Of a stretch of 53,713 nt of DNA, positions 1 to 53,713 are shown one piece after another (position 1 is the stretch's first letter; every line of letters starts with the position of its first letter). Source of the DNA: Candidatus Brockarchaeota archaeon (GTDB taxonomy: Archaea > Thermoproteota > EX4484-205 > JAAOZP01). Where the stretch lies: assembly GCA_017601245.1 (NCBI GenBank), contig JAFNJB010000046.1, positions 1 through 53,713 on the forward strand, in the 5' to 3' direction. A program made the translations under genes and the position numbers. Under the pieces are notes generated by a model, which saw only the letters and a program-made list of their open reading frames with translations, had not been told where the DNA came from and ran no database searches.

Positions 1-912
1 TCCTTTTTCTAAAAATATGTGGAGATGGACTATGCCACCGTCATTCTTGACAGCATTCTTGGCGGCGTCTAAAAACATCTCTGAACTCATAGGCAGGTTC
101 ATGATTACTCTGTCTCCAATACCCTTAAGCTCCTTTTGGGAAAGTTTCTTCGCATCTCCCAAATATGCTTTAACCCTATCCTCAACCTTGTTCAACCTTA
201 TGTTTTCAACTAGATAACTATAAGCATCAGGATTTATGTCGCAAGCATAGACTCTAACACTAGGGTTTTTCTTAGCAATGATTATGCTGAATGGCCCTAT
301 TCCTGCAAAGAGGTCGCAGACAACTTCTCCGGGTTTGACTAATGAGGCTACTCTAATCCTCTCAGCCGAGAGCCTTGGTGTAAAGAAAACCTTTGAAATA
401 TCCAGTTTGAACACGCAACCATGTTCTCTATGGATGGTTTCTGTACTTCCCTCTCCAGCTAGTACCTCATATCCTCCAACTCTATATTCACCGGAAAGAG
501 GCTCGGTTTTGTTTAAGACGATCCTGATGTTTTTCATAGACTTTAGAAAAGCTTCTCCAATAATTCTTCCCTTACCATGGAGCTCTTCGGGCAATTGTAG
601 GATGCAAATATCTCCAATTACGTCGAAAGACCTGGGTACGAGCTTCAGCTCTTCCTCTGTCAAATCCTTCTTGAGAATCTCTATGGGGGTTAGAGTTCTT
701 TCAGACTCTTCGAATTCTTCAAAGACAACCTCGCCATCTACATCTAACTTGTCAAGAGGGATTTCGTTGACAAGTGGTATTACTATGAAACTATTCCTCC
801 TCTTTATCAACAAGTTTTTATTAACGAGATTCCTACTCCTTAAAATCTGGAGCATTCTCTCTCCATATTCCTTCTTTACGAGAAGACCCTTAGCAATTCT
901 AACTCTTCTCAA
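1..912 (-). CDS. trm5: tRNA (guanine37-N1)-methyltransferase Trm5 (partial, 3' end outside window)
   Basis: The reverse strand reads open for 304 codons from a TTG at 912 to the window edge, so the C-terminus is missing. Trm5 makes m1G37 next to the anticodon using S-adenosylmethionine and prevents +1 frameshifting. Seen: an N-terminal domain of about 100 residues, a FFTPRLSAER segment (about 176-185), the SAM loop DLFAGIGPF (about 200-208) and the family motif MNLP (about 271-274). An in-frame TAA lies two codons before the TTG, so no longer start exists in this frame. No clear ribosome site is visible. The antisense frame is also open over most of this length and should not be called. Identity is firm; the exact start is less so. 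Confidence 0.9.
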   Translation of the reverse strand, partial: MRRVRIAKGLLVKKEYGERMLQILRSRNLVNKNLLIKRRNSFIVIPLVNEIPLDKLDVDGEVVFEEFEESERTLTPIEILKKDLTEEELKLVPRSFDVIGDICILQLPEELHGKGRIIGEAFLKSMKNIRIVLNKTEPLSGEYRVGGYEVLAGEGSTETIHREHGCVFKLDISKVFFTPRLSAERIRVASLVKPGEVVCDLFAGIGPFSIIIAKKNPSVRVYACDINPDAYSYLVENIRLNKVEDRVKAYLGDAKKLSQKELKGIGDRVIMNLPMSSEMFLDAAKNAVKNDGGIVHLHIFLEKG

Positions 913-47199: not shown

Positions 47200-48021
47200 T
47201 TACTTGGCAGCTTCAACGAGAAATCTGCATACGCTATCCCCTTTTGCAATACATTCCACCTCAGATACTGTAAAGCTTTTACCATACAGCCTTTGGAAAA
47301 TCCCGGCGAGATACCCTCTGAAGAGTTGGCTTACAGGCTTTTCTTGCTTATTCCTGAACGGGAGGCATTCGAATAATTCTCGAGCTACTATCACTGCCCT
47401 CTTACCATTTGCCTCCTCGGCTTCTGCAATGCACCATCCCTTGGCTGAACGCTCAGCCAATATTATTTTCAAAGCTGTTTGCTTATCCACCTTGTATTTT
47501 TTGACTAGCCCCTCAACCTTGCTTTCTCCTAGAGAAACACCCATTTCATAGAGTATTACTGCTGCTCCAGTGCCGAATTTCTCGTAAAGCCTCTTCAATA
47601 AGGCTCCAAAGCTTTCAACCCTTAGGGTGAAGCTTCTTTCACCACCAACGAGAAGGGGGAAGAAGAGCTCGTCTATGATTAGATCTTTAAGCATTCTTTG
47701 TGAAAACCTTACTTCTAGAACACCTTCTGTCTTCTTAAACTCCTCGGCTATTTTCTCAGGAGTCATGTCTTTAATATTCGATATGTCCATGAAGAAACCG
47801 ACATAAGCCTCGTCTTTCTCTAAATTAGCATCGTAGAAACCATATAATTCCCTTGCGTTTTTCTCTCTCAAAAGTCCTAAGGTTTTCAGGAATTCTGGTT
47901 CAGCGCCCCTACGGAATCTTATAAAAAACTCGACAAGCTTACCGTTTGGAAGATGCTCAGAACACATTATTTCCTTAGGATAACATGTTTCAATAGGGTC
48001 TTGACCTTCATTATAGGCCAT
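47200..48021 (-). CDS. V4R-domain protein 3 with N-terminal ACT-like domain
   Basis: 273-residue third paralogue. The shared cysteines are Cys20, 197, 219, 257 and 265; Cys13 is extra. V4R core from about residue 129 (ERSFTLRVESFGALLKRLY) to the end. More diverged in DNA from copies 1 and 2 than they are from each other in the 92-bp tract. ATG at 48021 with promoter 15-mer identical to that of copy 1. It lies alone, divergent from DUF488. Confidence 0.82.
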   Translation of the reverse strand: MAYNEGQDPIETCYPKEIMCSEHLPNGKLVEFFIRFRRGAEPEFLKTLGLLREKNARELYGFYDANLEKDEAYVGFFMDISNIKDMTPEKIAEEFKKTEGVLEVRFSQRMLKDLIIDELFFPLLVGGERSFTLRVESFGALLKRLYEKFGTGAAVILYEMGVSLGESKVEGLVKKYKVDKQTALKIILAERSAKGWCIAEAEEANGKRAVIVARELFECLPFRNKQEKPVSQLFRGYLAGIFQRLYGKSFTVSEVECIAKGDSVCRFLVEAAK

Positions 48022-48058: not shown

Positions 48059-48168
48059 ACTTAACTTGAATCTTATCTATAATGTTGATAATCTGCAAAT
48101 CCTCCAGAAAGATGTTTAATTAAGAGATTACTATTTAAGTTGCTTTACTAATACTTAGCTGGTTGAAC

Positions 48169-48597
48169 ATGGATAGGTTAATACTCTGGACGATAGGGCA
48201 TAGTAATCTTTCAAAAGAAGAGTTTTTAAGATTGCTTAAAAAACATGAGATTAGAATTTTAGTTGACGTTAGAAGGTTTCCAAAGTCGAAGCTCGAGCAT
48301 TTCTGCAAAGAAAAAATGGAATACTGGCTACCTGAGGAAGGTATTGCTTATTTTTGGCTGGGGGAAGAATTGGGAGGATATCGTCGTGAAGGCTATGAGA
48401 AGTACATGGAGACACCAGTTTTTAGAGAAGGGATTAAAAAACTTCTGGAAATAGCTGAGAAGGGTAGAACATGTATAATGTGTCTCGAAACAAACCCTAA
48501 GTATTGCCATAGGAGGTTTATTACATCATACTTGAGGAGAAAGAGGATAAGAGTGGTACACATAATTGGAACAAAGAGGAAACAGAGCCGATGTTAA
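48169..48597 (+). CDS. DUF488 family protein
   Basis: 142 residues of DUF488: ILWTIGHSNLSKEEFL, VDVRRFPKSK, and the Cys-containing CLETNPKYCHRRFI are the family blocks. Function unknown; the fold is thought to bind nucleic acid or nucleotides. ATG at 48169 preferred over a TTG two codons upstream, with GGTTGA just before. Its stop and that of the 7TM gene share a TTAA. Confidence 0.88.
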   Translation: MDRLILWTIGHSNLSKEEFLRLLKKHEIRILVDVRRFPKSKLEHFCKEKMEYWLPEEGIAYFWLGEELGGYRREGYEKYMETPVFREGIKKLLEIAEKGRTCIMCLETNPKYCHRRFITSYLRRKRIRVVHIIGTKRKQSRC

Positions 48598-50690
48598 TCA
48601 ACACGGATGGTGATGTTTAAGAGCTCTTCTAAGGCAGATCTGATGTTTTCACCCCAAGCCTTAATGTTTAAAGTAACCATTAAAGAGACTTTTGAAGGAT
48701 TGAGTTCAAGCATGCTTCGAATAAGCCTATAAGTCTTTTCAAAGCCGTGCTGAGTCAGAAAATCAGTTATGCTGTCGAAAACCACGAATACGAATGAAGG
48801 GGCATTTCTAATGCTTCTACCAAGGGATTCCAATACTTCAATAACATCTTGTAGAGATACTTGGATCTCTGATTCGGAAAGAACTGCAGTACGCAAGGTC
48901 ATTAATGAAGGGTAAATAAACTTAATACTCCTCTGGTCTTGAAGACTATCTTGTAAGGGGCTCCCCCTTCTCGTGATTACGATAATGGTGTCCCCATGGG
49001 CTAAGGCTTCTATAACATAATCCTTAACGTAATCTAAATAGGGGTTTCCAGGCTCGAACTCGAGGAGTATGCCTTTTCCTATGAGCTTCTCATGGTCAAA
49101 GCCGATTCTTGAAGAAAATCTACTTAGGTCTTTTTCTGTAAACCCTTCAGCAAGCTTCAAAATACTTATATATGTTGATGGTATTCTCCTCGACAAAGAT
49201 TCTACTAAGCTAGTATAAACCATAGTTCTAAAAGCAACATCGATATTAAGCCGTAATACGAGTCTTAAACGCTTTATAATACCATCAATATTATTGCTCG
49301 TCTTCTTGTAAAGCTCTTCAACCATCCATGCTATGAAAGGTATGAAATTTTCCAATAAGATTGGAATTCTTTCGTCTTGAGGTATTGACTTGATTTCTTC
49401 CTCAATGTTTTTTGTTTCAACTTCTCCCAAGCTGGAAATACTTAAGCGACTTAAAAGACTGAACGAGACTATTTTACTCTCCACAATGTTTCCAACATTA
49501 TTATAAAAGTCTTGAAGTATTGAGGAAATGAGCCTACGACATAGCCTGAGACAAGCCTGCCAATCTGGGAGCTCCCTAAGAGAATCATCATGCTCTACCT
49601 CTGTAATGAATTCTCCCCCGGCTAGGCCATATAAAACATCTGTCTTCTTTAGAAAATCCTCATATCTAATAACTATTCTCCTAAAACTGTTCTTATCGCT
49701 AACTTTTATATATACTGTGTTGAGTAATCTTAGAAGGTTGCTGGAAAGCTCTATAGCCCAGGGTTTATCCTCGAGGTAATGCAATGTTTCTTCAATGAGC
49801 GTGAGTAAGTCTACCTTATCTAAGGCATTGGGCTTTAATATTAATCTTCCCTCAGAGTCTTGCTCTAGTGCATGCCTTAGTTTAACCCTCGTTAAATATC
49901 TTTCTAATTCGATAAGACTTTGGCCAAGTTCTTTACCCGGAGCTACTTCTATAAACTTGTTGATGAAAGATGCATATTGGTTAAATAAGATGTCTTCGCC
50001 GATTTTGGGCTTAATAGTTTTCTCCCTTATCGAGAAGGCATAGCTTACACCTAGGAAAAACAAATAAGTATTTATTCCACCTGGTGGAGGCATTTCTGGG
50101 TTTTCTGTTAAAATCAAGTTTAGACCAAATACTCCGAAAACGTAAAAGACTATAAAGTATATTAAAATTATGATGTATTTCCTACGTATGATGCTGCTTT
50201 TAACACGTTTAATCAAAAAAGCAATTAAGAAACAAATTTCAAACATACAAAGCAAGTAAATCAAATGCTCTATCGTTGTAAAGTAACTCGTTTCAAATCT
50301 ATATGACCAACCGTAGTTTTTTGTAGGAATAATATATGTTTTTACATACGTGAAATGAAGTATGTATAATGGAATCGCCGGTACCATTAGAAGATAAAAT
50401 TTAGGATCTTCTTTCCAAAGGAATAAAACAGTCACCAAAAGAAGGAGGGGATTCAAACTAAAGAATATGATTGTAAACTGTAGAAAAATCCAGGACAAGT
50501 CTTCACTGGGAGCAGTCCTGTGGAGAAAAGCGAAAGTCTCCCATAAGGATACAGATATTGTGAATAGTAGAAAGTTTTTAGAGCTTAGAGTCTTGGGTTT
50601 ACCCTTCAAAATTTGAAGCGCAATTAGTAATGATGAAATCGCTGCAGCCGGATAGAAGAGAAGCCAAGGATGAAATGGGAAGAAGTTCAT
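48594..50690 (-). CDS. 7TM sensor protein with degenerate RecA/KaiC-like C-terminal domain
   Basis: 698 residues. Seven membrane segments in the first 221 residues (9-28, 40-57, 67-92, 98-116, 140-160, 172-194, 204-221), like histidine-kinase-type 7TM sensors. A helical middle (225-520) follows. The last 180 residues resemble a RecA/KaiC fold: GKGILLEFEPGNPYLDYVKD stands where the Walker A should be and has no GxxxxGK[ST], while VFVVFDSITDFL resembles Walker B. No kinase motifs. It is the last gene of the AsnC-KaiC-GH3 operon, 4 bp after the GH3-like stop. Probably a receptor that joins the intact KaiC-like ATPase. Confidence 0.78.
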   Translation of the reverse strand: MNFFPFHPWLLFYPAAAISSLLIALQILKGKPKTLSSKNFLLFTISVSLWETFAFLHRTAPSEDLSWIFLQFTIIFFSLNPLLLLVTVLFLWKEDPKFYLLMVPAIPLYILHFTYVKTYIIPTKNYGWSYRFETSYFTTIEHLIYLLCMFEICFLIAFLIKRVKSSIIRRKYIIILIYFIVFYVFGVFGLNLILTENPEMPPPGGINTYLFFLGVSYAFSIREKTIKPKIGEDILFNQYASFINKFIEVAPGKELGQSLIELERYLTRVKLRHALEQDSEGRLILKPNALDKVDLLTLIEETLHYLEDKPWAIELSSNLLRLLNTVYIKVSDKNSFRRIVIRYEDFLKKTDVLYGLAGGEFITEVEHDDSLRELPDWQACLRLCRRLISSILQDFYNNVGNIVESKIVSFSLLSRLSISSLGEVETKNIEEEIKSIPQDERIPILLENFIPFIAWMVEELYKKTSNNIDGIIKRLRLVLRLNIDVAFRTMVYTSLVESLSRRIPSTYISILKLAEGFTEKDLSRFSSRIGFDHEKLIGKGILLEFEPGNPYLDYVKDYVIEALAHGDTIIVITRRGSPLQDSLQDQRSIKFIYPSLMTLRTAVLSESEIQVSLQDVIEVLESLGRSIRNAPSFVFVVFDSITDFLTQHGFEKTYRLIRSMLELNPSKVSLMVTLNIKAWGENIRSALEELLNITIRVD

Positions 50691-50694
50691 AATA

Positions 50695-52344
50695 TTAGAT
50701 TCCTCTTAGCGTTTCAAAGATTTCCATTTTTTGAGTTGGAATGACTTTAAGAGGTTTAACCTGACCATATGGAAGACCCATTTTCAATCTTAGGTTCGAG
50801 TATTTGTTAAAAGTCCCTTTCCTCAAATATTCAACTTTTATTACGCTAGAGGGATCTTTTATTTTAAAATCTCTTACGAAGTTTCTAAATTCTTCGTTCT
50901 CACTCCATAATGCTTTAAAGATCATTTCGGCTGCAGTTTTTTCATCATAATCGCGCTCTTTCTCCATAAGTACACATATTTTCTCATCTGGCTCCATGAT
51001 TTTAGCGAAACACCAGTTTTCTGAGGAAGTTAGTCCAGACTTTATCATAACGCGAGTAGCCAATCGCTCGTCTATCCTAAAGTAACCATAAATTTCAAAA
51101 TAGTATCCTTCTCTACTCTCGAAGGAGAACACGGGCATTCCATCATCTCTAAAATACTCCACTCTAAATATATCTCCAATTTTATACCTAACAACACTTC
51201 CCCCAAACGGCGTCATTACTAGACTATAGCTATGCCCTTTCTTCAATTCATCGATTCCGAAAATATCGCCGCTTTTAACATCAATGAATTCAAAAAACCC
51301 TATCCTCAAGTCTGGAATCATATTGTACTTATCCTCAACAGTGCCATACATGGGGAAACCGATTTCACTAGCCCCATATAGATTTAACGGTTCCATTCCC
51401 CATGTGCGCTTGAAAAGATCTATATACATCTTTGAATCGAAACCGGCGCATATTAAGCCTTTAACTGGCATAACCTCCCTAATATCTTTAGGTTTCCAAA
51501 ATAATTCAGCATGAATCGATTTTAAAAGCATGTATATTTTTGCCGCCCCGATATCTAACGCTTCATAGTATTCTCTATAGAAAGACTTTCTATCCACAAT
51601 GTATTTAGTCAATAAGAAGAGTAGTGAAGCAGTTGTTCCTATTAATGCTATTTTCTCCTTCGCCTCATCTATCTTTCTTAAAATTATCCAGATCCTACGT
51701 CTAATATCTGAAGTTTTGTCTACGACTTCAAACGAAGGATATACATTGAATTGGAAAAGCTTGTTTAGAAAATATATGCTCCAACCTGAAAAGTAAGGTG
51801 CAGGCGCACCCATGTTTAAAAAGTAATCTCCAAAACGGAGACGGGTGTCCCCCATGGATTCGCTACATGCTATTATCATTGGAGATATTCCAACTTTCAA
51901 ATAAACTTCTTGAAAGAGGTTTGTCCATAATATCCATTTGCTCTGACCAGTCGTCCCACTAGTTTTAACGCAGGACTGGAATTCTCCAGGCAAATACTCA
52001 ATTATAGGCTCGGCAGCTATTCTTCCAATACGCATATAGTACTCCGTTAAGGTTTCTCCTTTACTCCTCGGAGTAGTTTCTTCCAAGTGCTTTATTCTCT
52101 CCTCAAACACTTTCAAAAAAGTGTAGTCATTATATGTTGTAACCGGTATTTGCCTTATGTTTTCAGCATCTTTTGCTCCTAATGCTTCTAGAAGTTTAGT
52201 ATTCTTTATCTTCTTGAAGTAGGATTCTGTTTTCTCACGGTTGTATTCCAACTGCTTCTGAAAATCTTGGTATAGAAAACTACAATACTTATCCCATAAT
52301 TCTCTACCTTCATCGATCAAGAAGCTTCCCCCGCTTATCATCAC
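50695..52344 (-). CDS. GH3/ANL-superfamily adenylate-forming enzyme
   Basis: 549 residues. ATP/AMP motif TSGTTGQSK (128-136), acyl-adenylate motifs YGASEIG (about 320) and YKIGDIFRV (about 391), all as in the ANL superfamily. Overall length and the lack of a large C-terminal CoA-ligase domain suggest GH3 (plant hormone-amino acid conjugases); PaaK-type CoA ligases and LuxE-type acyl-protein synthetases are alternatives. It should activate a carboxylic acid with ATP. Start GTG at 52344 overlaps the KaiC-like stop by 4 bp (GTGA); an ATG follows as codon 2. Third gene of the operon. Confidence 0.75.
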   Translation of the reverse strand: MMISGGSFLIDEGRELWDKYCSFLYQDFQKQLEYNREKTESYFKKIKNTKLLEALGAKDAENIRQIPVTTYNDYTFLKVFEERIKHLEETTPRSKGETLTEYYMRIGRIAAEPIIEYLPGEFQSCVKTSGTTGQSKWILWTNLFQEVYLKVGISPMIIACSESMGDTRLRFGDYFLNMGAPAPYFSGWSIYFLNKLFQFNVYPSFEVVDKTSDIRRRIWIILRKIDEAKEKIALIGTTASLLFLLTKYIVDRKSFYREYYEALDIGAAKIYMLLKSIHAELFWKPKDIREVMPVKGLICAGFDSKMYIDLFKRTWGMEPLNLYGASEIGFPMYGTVEDKYNMIPDLRIGFFEFIDVKSGDIFGIDELKKGHSYSLVMTPFGGSVVRYKIGDIFRVEYFRDDGMPVFSFESREGYYFEIYGYFRIDERLATRVMIKSGLTSSENWCFAKIMEPDEKICVLMEKERDYDEKTAAEMIFKALWSENEEFRNFVRDFKIKDPSSVIKVEYLRKGTFNKYSNLRLKMGLPYGQVKPLKVIPTQKMEIFETLRGI

Positions 52345-53030
52345 ATTTCTGGATAAATGCTTAGGTTTATTCCTGAACCCTTTACTATGTTTAGCCTATA
52401 ATACCTAGTGTCATGACTTGTCGCCCTCATCTTCAGTACCATTAATCTTCTCTCAAGCTTGTTTCCCACAACAACAGACTCCATAAGTATTATGCCGTCG
52501 GCTATGAATTCTTCAATACCCATTCCTATTCCAGTAGTTCCCCAAGGACTTTCTGTAATCATTAAAGTGGTGCATCCTATATTCTTCAACATCCTGACCA
52601 GGAGGTTTATTAGCGTCCTTACTTCAGCCTTGCTTCCCAGAGCCAGGTTTAAGGCTGATAGAGAATCAACCACCAGTCTCTGTGCCTTAAACCTTTTGAC
52701 TTCTTCAACTATTAAATTAATCATGTCTTCTACCCTAAGTTTTACTGCAGTGGGAAGCTCGATTATCCTAATCATGCCCTTTTCCTCAAGCTTGTTAAAA
52801 TCCCAGCCTAGCCCAAGCATGTTATTCTTGAAATTTTCCCTGCTTTCGCTCAAACAAGCGTAAATTCCCTTTTCATTGTATAAAGTGACACCGTTGTAGA
52901 TGAATTGGGCCGAGAGGATTGTCTTACCGGCTCCAGGACTGCCTGCAATTATAACCAACCCTCCCCTCGGCAACCCTCCTTCAATAAGGTTGTCGAGTTC
53001 CGTTATGCCAAATGGTACTCTATCCTTCAA
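52341..53030 (-). CDS. KaiC-like RecA-superfamily ATPase
   Basis: 229 residues; single RecA fold of the archaeal KaiC-like type. Walker A GSPGAGKT (30-37), Walker B-like LVVDSLSAL, and the family opening FGITELDNLIEGGLPRGG. Single-domain KaiC-like proteins often act as ATP-dependent switches on sensors. TTG start at 53030, overlapping the AsnC gene by 11 bp. Second gene of the operon; a pseudo-RecA domain on the 7TM protein is its likely partner (inference). Confidence 0.88.
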   Translation of the reverse strand: MKDRVPFGITELDNLIEGGLPRGGLVIIAGSPGAGKTILSAQFIYNGVTLYNEKGIYACLSESRENFKNNMLGLGWDFNKLEEKGMIRIIELPTAVKLRVEDMINLIVEEVKRFKAQRLVVDSLSALNLALGSKAEVRTLINLLVRMLKNIGCTTLMITESPWGTTGIGMGIEEFIADGIILMESVVVGNKLERRLMVLKMRATSHDTRYYRLNIVKGSGINLSIYPEM

Positions 53031-53649
53031 GGCTCAACCCCTCCAATGGCCTTATTATCAAAGACCCGTCTTCCCCCATGAGTAATAGTGATTCGGGTTC
53101 TCCTCCAATAGTGTTTTCAAGCATTCCCGCAAGTATTCCTCTGAAGAACGAGGGGTTTATCCTCAAACCTTTTAAATCGGCTTTTATAGAATTGTCCTTC
53201 ATCCTATCGAAGCGTACATTTCCCCACCCTCTAATATTACAAACCTTGGAGGAAAAGGATAAAACATCGTCAACCGTATGCTTCCCTCTCCCCATGCTTT
53301 TTACAATTGACTTGCCTATGCCCTTGCCTGCATAGAAAAATATCACATCTGCCGCGCTAGAATACATCTGGCGGAGGGCGTCTTCGAAATTAGACCATTC
53401 CGCTACTGTGAACTTTATCTCGCTTAAATCACTAGTGTCAAAAATAAGGCTTTTTACATAATCGTTTAGAACAATCTGATACCCAAGTATAATGCCTTCT
53501 CTCTCCATCCTGGATACTCTACGGGCCACGGTTCTGTCTGATACGTCAAGCTGCTTAGCTATTTCTCGACAACTAAGCTTCGGATCCTTAGAGAGGATTT
53601 GTAGTATTTCTAAGTCTAGTCTATCTACTTTTTCTTTTTTCCTAACCAT
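53020..53649 (-). CDS. AsnC/Lrp-type HTH regulator with a Cys-less V4R-like domain
   Basis: 209 residues. Residues 8-55 are an AsnC-type winged helix (LDLEILQILSKDPKLSCREI, LDVSDRTVARRVSRMEREG). Residues 78-205 line up with the V4R paralogues of this window: FTVAEW, FFYAGKGIGKSIVKSM, RGWG, SFFRGILAGML. The Cys of GWC, FEC and ECxxxGDxxC are all missing here, so ligand binding must differ, and the usual Lrp RAM domain is replaced. ATG at 53649, 13 bp from a 15-bp palindrome. First gene of the operon 53649-48594, and likely its own regulator. Confidence 0.83.
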   Translation of the reverse strand: MVRKKEKVDRLDLEILQILSKDPKLSCREIAKQLDVSDRTVARRVSRMEREGIILGYQIVLNDYVKSLIFDTSDLSEIKFTVAEWSNFEDALRQMYSSAADVIFFYAGKGIGKSIVKSMGRGKHTVDDVLSFSSKVCNIRGWGNVRFDRMKDNSIKADLKGLRINPSFFRGILAGMLENTIGGEPESLLLMGEDGSLIIRPLEGLSLEG

Positions 53650-53662
53650 CTAGTAGTATATT

Positions 53663-53677
53663 TTTAACATTGTTAAA
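53663..53677. promoter_or_regulatory. 15-bp perfect palindrome at the operon promoter
   Basis: TTTAACATTGTTAAA, arms of 7 around one base. It lies between the TATA-like sequence (53674-53684) and the AsnC-type start, an ideal place for an operator. Confidence 0.65.
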
Positions 53678-53684
53678 TATATGC
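53674..53684 (-). promoter_or_regulatory. TATA box of the AsnC-KaiC-GH3-7TM operon
   Basis: CATATATTTAAC on the reverse strand, centred about 30 bp before the ATG at 53649, so the transcript starts only a few bases before the ATG. Confidence 0.55.
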
Positions 53685-53713
53685 TTTTCGCATAACGCAC
53701 TTTTATTCATTCT

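Follow-up and report, generated by a model that had tools for sequence, protein, structure and literature searches.

The 53,713-nucleotide contig of a Candidatus Brockarchaeota archaeon analysed here, hereafter the window, represents one whole contig of a 1.3-Mb bin and raises the question of what purpose is served by four minus-strand reading frames at its end. An earlier note had read them as a single operon, encoding an AsnC-V4R regulator, a KaiC-like ATPase, a GH3/ANL adenylase and a 7TM protein with a dead RecA domain, and had proposed that together they form a signalling chain.

Layout and proteins of the operon

The organization as one operon was borne out, both for the coordinates and for the junctions, with overlaps of 11 bp (AsnC/KaiC) and 4 bp (KaiC/GH3) and a gap of 4 bp (GH3/7TM). 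The features are as follows.

53675..53690, minus strand: promoter, BRE-like CGAAAAG and TATA-like CATATATTT, conserved in the genus
53020..53649, minus strand: Lrp/AsnC-type regulator gene, open reading frame
52341..53030, minus strand: KaiC-like ATPase gene, open reading frame with TTG start
50695..52344, minus strand: GH3 gene, open reading frame with GTG start
48594..50690, minus strand: 7TM receptor gene, open reading frame
50016..50690, minus strand: 7TM sensor domain, residues ~1-225, from alignments with histidine-kinase-type receptors and the phylum search
Receptor residues ~230-510, minus strand: helical linker domain, from the AF2 model
48597..49103, minus strand: putative inactive KaiC-like (iKaiC) output domain, residues ~530-698, from a fold match, no Walker A

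The contig end lies just upstream of the regulator gene. The BRE/TATA-like promoter element (CGAAAAGCATATATTT, 53690-53675) precedes the ATG of the AsnC gene by ~26 nt, and the upstream regions of all six genomes of the genus share its core, CGAAAA followed by ATATAT. The TTG start of the KaiC gene is also conserved in relatives. A palindrome upstream of the window AsnC gene (TTTAACA-A-TGTTAAA) was considered as operator and dropped because it is not conserved in the nearest relative.

Several genes were observed around the operon. In related genomes, the gene for a surface protein that bears CarboxypepD_reg repeats and has its membrane anchor at the C terminus is conserved upstream (L009:5093-6367, L014:2881-4446), preceded by that of a membrane protein of ~100-120 aa. 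On the 3' side, a DUF488 gene (48163-48597) adjoins the operon in the closest genome too, and a lone V4R-domain gene (47200-48021, minus strand) has a 78% identical copy in that genome and no match in the four more distant genomes with the operon; neither was counted as part of the operon.

The regulator, 51-82% identical across five genomes, matches Pfam HTH_24 (3.6e-15) and the AsnC HTH (2.1e-11), so that the AsnC half of its original description stands. The V4R half relies on a fold match of low TM, V4R not being among the best 25 of the 39 Pfam families matched by this protein: the C-terminal part of the AlphaFold (AF2) model resembles V4R/H-NOX-type folds, including those of the phenol sensors MopR, PoxR and DmpR (Foldseek probability ~1.0, TM ~0.42, E>1e-3), making a V4R-like domain of the H-NOX superfamily likely. 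Its relative in another archaeal locus (L123) matches V4R at 0.014. The next protein was correctly recognized as a KaiC-like ATPase (Pfam KaiC, 1.1e-59) and, judged by its motifs, looks active, with Walker A (GxxGxGKT) and the Walker B aspartate invariant in the alignment of relatives. For Haloferax volcanii, PMC13286277 reports extensive transcriptional overlap between the Lrp/AsnC regulator CsmR and the KaiC-like CirA, which provides a precedent for Lrp/AsnC-KaiC pairing.

As regards the GH3 protein, it scores over the cut-off for Pfam GH3_M (PF23571, 6.6e-10) and below threshold for the GH3 N- and C-terminal domains, while every match in a PDB profile search is a GH3 enzyme, among them GH3.12 (2.2e-15). 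No match to PF00501 (AMP-binding) was found at E<1. Thus, the "GH3/ANL" label holds for GH3 and not for an ANL acyl-CoA synthetase, and membership in a well-known CoA ligase family, named in the earlier note as a finding that would speak against the idea, is rejected. Its motifs comprise a P-loop (KTSGTTGQSK, residues 127-136), YGASE, RYKIGD and the lysine of a C-terminal GQVKP. In 18 of 18 archaeal GH3s of this module, the glutamate of motif II, the aspartate of motif III (RYxxxD-type) and the lysine of the GQxKPP-type motif are kept, as is the SGTT-K-type P-loop in all those whose sequence includes that region. The middle domain and C-terminal lysine region align with GH3.12, and P-loop, YGxSE-like and RYxxGD-like motifs are shared with the plant acyl acid amido synthetases (GH3.12/PBS3, JAR1, IAA-amido synthetases); nonetheless, overall identity to these is low, there is no plant hormone context, and the gene sits in an operon with a 7TM receptor.

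The receptor (AF2 model pLDDT 78) aligns with Pfam HisKA_7TM (PF16927) at 7e-6 and 26.5 bits, below the cut-off of 28.6, and scores 29.5 bits in a six-frame search. HisKA_7TM is rare: the window genome and three others each have a single copy, the GH3-linked one. The C-terminal domain of the modelled receptor matches KaiC and FlaH/ArlH (Foldseek probability 1.0, but E ~0.05-0.1), and the position of Walker A reads EFEPGNPYLDY, with no GKT. Since a profile comparison with the partner KaiC was negative, the fold match is the sole support for the assignment; the model points to an inactive KaiC-like domain, in line with the dead RecA domain originally suggested.

Conservation of the GH3-7TM pair and exchange of its outputs

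Five other members of the genus show the order AsnC-KaiC-GH3-7TM as well, which makes six Brockarchaeota-type genomes in all. The nearest named relative, Candidatus Brockarchaeota QC4_43, has a GH3 79% identical to that of the window, while four of the five further genomes share only ~40% identity in GH3 and ~27% in the 7TM protein. Outside this family, genome G212 (locus L123) contains V4R-like, KaiC, GH3 and 7TM genes with spacings of -14 to +6 bp, and a KaiC gene precedes GH3 in one Hadarchaeota genome. The idea therefore survived the possibility, raised at the outset, that the neighbourhood would not be conserved in any related genome. No relative was found in viral, phage and plasmid collections.

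Searches were extended to a phylum-wide set of 398 genomes from 163 genera. Full-length or near-full-length GH3s of the module kind occurred in 13 genomes (5 genera). When the 7TM domain by itself served as query in a second search, it was retrieved at E<1e-49 from the identical 13 genomes (5 genera) and from no others. One extra 7TM match (1e-7) corresponds to a different 7TM kinase without GH3. The naive odds of such co-occurrence by chance are 1e-24 by genome and 1e-9 by genus. Related genomes are not independent, which lowers the effective numbers, and most of the genomes used are metagenome bins. The coincidence is nevertheless not due to chance. Wherever the contig extends far enough to tell, which is the case for ~19 archaeal loci, GH3 and 7TM genes adjoin, either on the same strand or divergently, as in several Bathyarchaeota; L035, L037 and L040 are divergent loci. 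GH3 distances correlate with 7TM distances (r=0.89). One genome (G343) presents a second 7TM-kinase at a contig end, where any GH3 neighbour may lie beyond the contig. A small 4-TM protein that adjoins GH3 in Bathyarchaeota also adjoins the KaiC-type locus L123 (E 4e-22). Among Asgard archaea, the module was present in a single Njordarchaeum bin (L037), on an 8.7-kb contig that is possibly a mis-binned Bathyarchaeota contig, because its GH3 falls inside Bathyarchaeota in the tree.

What follows the sensor differs by lineage. Brockarchaeota and one other genome combine the dead KaiC domain with the active KaiC and the V4R regulator. In Bathyarchaeota, the 7TM and linker region runs on into HisKA and HATPase domains, and a receiver-domain response regulator, usual with the histidine kinase form, is encoded close by in several loci. 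In Hadarchaeota, the 7TM region continues into DUF835 (2.9e-24). According to the receptor tree, a single change suffices between iKaiC and kinase outputs. Two side observations concern these loci: in two Hadarchaeota genomes (L161:7149-7970, L189:1-1573) the receptor is split after the 7TM region and the remainder forms a separate following reading frame, and in Bathyarchaeota (L036:2211-2597, L038:2091-2396 and relatives) a gene flanked by those of the response regulator and the small TM protein encodes a helical protein of ~100 aa, with no Pfam match in the one member scanned.

A related arrangement was found in gut Clostridia, where 15 of 15 loci encode a PEMT/ICMT-like membrane protein, then GH3, then a HisKA_7TM-GAF-GGDEF-HD-GYP protein. 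The first of these, of 190 aa, has 4-5 TM and an RHPG (YALCRHPG-type) motif and is PEMT-like below the cut-off (L053:7154-7744, L119:4478-5038 and 13 more). GH3 scores in 391 clostridial genomes are bimodal, with seven genes at E<1e-230 and the remainder at 1e-26 or weaker; linkage to a receptor holds for seven of seven GH3s of the module branch versus none of ~24 other clostridial GH3s. The tree, which covers archaeal and clostridial GH3s, joins the module GH3s of both groups opposite the other clostridial ones with 100/100 support. Archaeal and clostridial 7TM regions are joined only via Pfam HisKA_7TM, their direct profile comparison being weak (probability 12%, E 0.0026), and the archaeal 7TM model retrieved no clostridial receptor. 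The clostridial module GH3s keep motif III and read TTWxGG at the P-loop position, without SGTT or the catalytic lysine motif. The product may thus not be made in Clostridia, and the same function is doubtful there.

Judged from these sequences, the conserved unit is the GH3-7TM pair, with KaiC and the V4R regulator as one of several outputs. This is where the earlier interpretation needs correction: it missed the pair as the unit, although its signalling part is strengthened, because histidine kinase, DUF835 and GGDEF-HD-GYP stand in for the dead KaiC. That a histidine kinase takes the place of iKaiC behind one and the same sensor is natural evidence for comparable roles of KaiC-based and two-component outputs.

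Proposed function of the pair

The operon may be envisaged as a small-molecule signalling unit built on this enzyme-receptor pair. GH3 would adenylate a carboxylic acid using ATP and probably couple it to an amine (amino acid), yielding an acyl-amide ligand that the adjacent 7TM protein would sense in the membrane. In Brockarchaeota, the cytoplasmic iKaiC domain would relay the signal to its active KaiC-like partner, and this ATPase would in turn control the Lrp/AsnC-V4R regulator. In other archaea, the same sensor would act through a DUF835 domain or through a histidine kinase with a response regulator, and the clostridial HisKA_7TM sensor would act on c-di-GMP-type enzymes. The pair itself, its strict linkage, the swap of outputs and the intact archaeal catalytic motifs are read from the genes; from them we infer acid activation by GH3 and ligand binding by V4R, as well as the product or ligand, the direction of its effect, the KaiC-iKaiC contact and the target genes. 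A synthase-receptor module with interchangeable outputs, in which GH3 makes or modifies an acyl-amide-type ligand of the adjacent receptor, is given a probability of about one half. That a bacterial GH3-like enzyme is able to make N-acyl-amino acids follows from OlsH of planctomycetes, a prokaryotic GH3 carrying nucleotide-binding motifs, which forms N-acyl-ornithine from fatty acid and ornithine; its operon partner is the acyltransferase OlsI, its product a membrane lipid, and the accessible part of its description mentions no archaeal member, receptor or signalling link (PMC12493201).

The same genomic linkage would be predicted if the 7TM protein sensed a free acid, released by a neighbour or taken from the environment, which the co-expressed GH3 then conjugated and inactivated, resetting the signal. 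Plant GH3s do inactivate IAA (auxin) by conjugation (PMC3359377), and the gene data give no preference between clearance and ligand synthesis; nonetheless, clostridial GH3s with degraded motifs would clear nothing, and this explanation appears somewhat unlikely. These same clostridial members, which retain motif III and the receptor linkage despite having lost P-loop and lysine, would rather fit a GH3 whose main role is to partner the receptor as a soluble sensor of ligand or nucleotide and not to produce the signal as an enzyme, an option made unlikely by the catalytic motifs kept throughout the archaeal members. An enzyme that remodels lipids or acids under an environmental sensor of its own, with the receptor monitoring membrane or substrate state and controlling the pathway and no cell-cell signal involved, would agree with OlsH-type GH3s making amino lipids (PMC12493201), the PEMT-like protein of the clostridial loci and a UbiA prenyltransferase in one Hadarchaeota locus; in several Bathyarchaeota (L034, L047), however, the unit comprises the pair and no additional pathway gene, and we regard this reading as quite improbable. 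Neutral synteny or chance neighbourhood, to which the six genomes of one genus might point, can be dismissed in view of the phylum-wide co-occurrence and of a linkage spanning Brock-, Bathy- and Hadarchaeota and Clostridia with varying orientations and flanks.

The pair can be compared with known systems. CqsA/CqsS, LuxM/LuxN and RpfF/RpfC are synthase-receptor pairs of bacterial quorum sensing. They resemble the present one in that a ligand-making enzyme, a putative one here, is encoded beside a membrane sensor; enzyme and receptor families are different, and the signal of GH3-7TM is a predicted one. With HisKA_7TM histidine kinases (PF16927; PMC5847659, PMC6944256) the receptors probably share the 7TM sensor domain, while forming their own sub-branch tied to GH3, often with an output that is no kinase. 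Archaeal KaiC/iKaiC hubs (Makarova, Galperin, Koonin 2017, cited through PMC5847659) similarly show an iKaiC domain in a sensor, an active KaiC partner and an HTH regulator; as known through that citing paper, they differ from the window operon in its GH3 partner and in receptor homologues with a histidine kinase replacing iKaiC. A limited search of the open-access literature on GH3 in connection with archaea, KaiC, 7TM, GGDEF or quorum sensing brought up no description of such a gene set, in agreement with the earlier note.

A secreted cell-cell signal has been demonstrated in Haloferax volcanii (PMC12240190), and its link to the transcriptional network is described as unknown in PMC13286277. 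Archaeal cell-cell signalling synthases and receptors are largely unknown, and an enzyme and a receptor so strictly linked allow a direct test. The GH3-7TM pair may, tentatively, represent a so far unrecognised system by which archaea and Clostridia communicate chemically, with GH3-made acyl-amides as ligands and KaiC, two-component or c-di-GMP outputs; if true, archaeal cell-cell signalling would gain a candidate synthase and a candidate receptor. The exchange between iKaiC and histidine kinase supports the proposal of KaiC proteins as signalling hubs, and GH3 enzymes, known from plant hormone control, would be extended towards prokaryotic signalling. In short, an operon of a hot-spring archaeon pairs a GH3 relative with a seven-helix receptor, and the recurrence of this pair with lineage-specific outputs suggests an undescribed chemical-signalling system.
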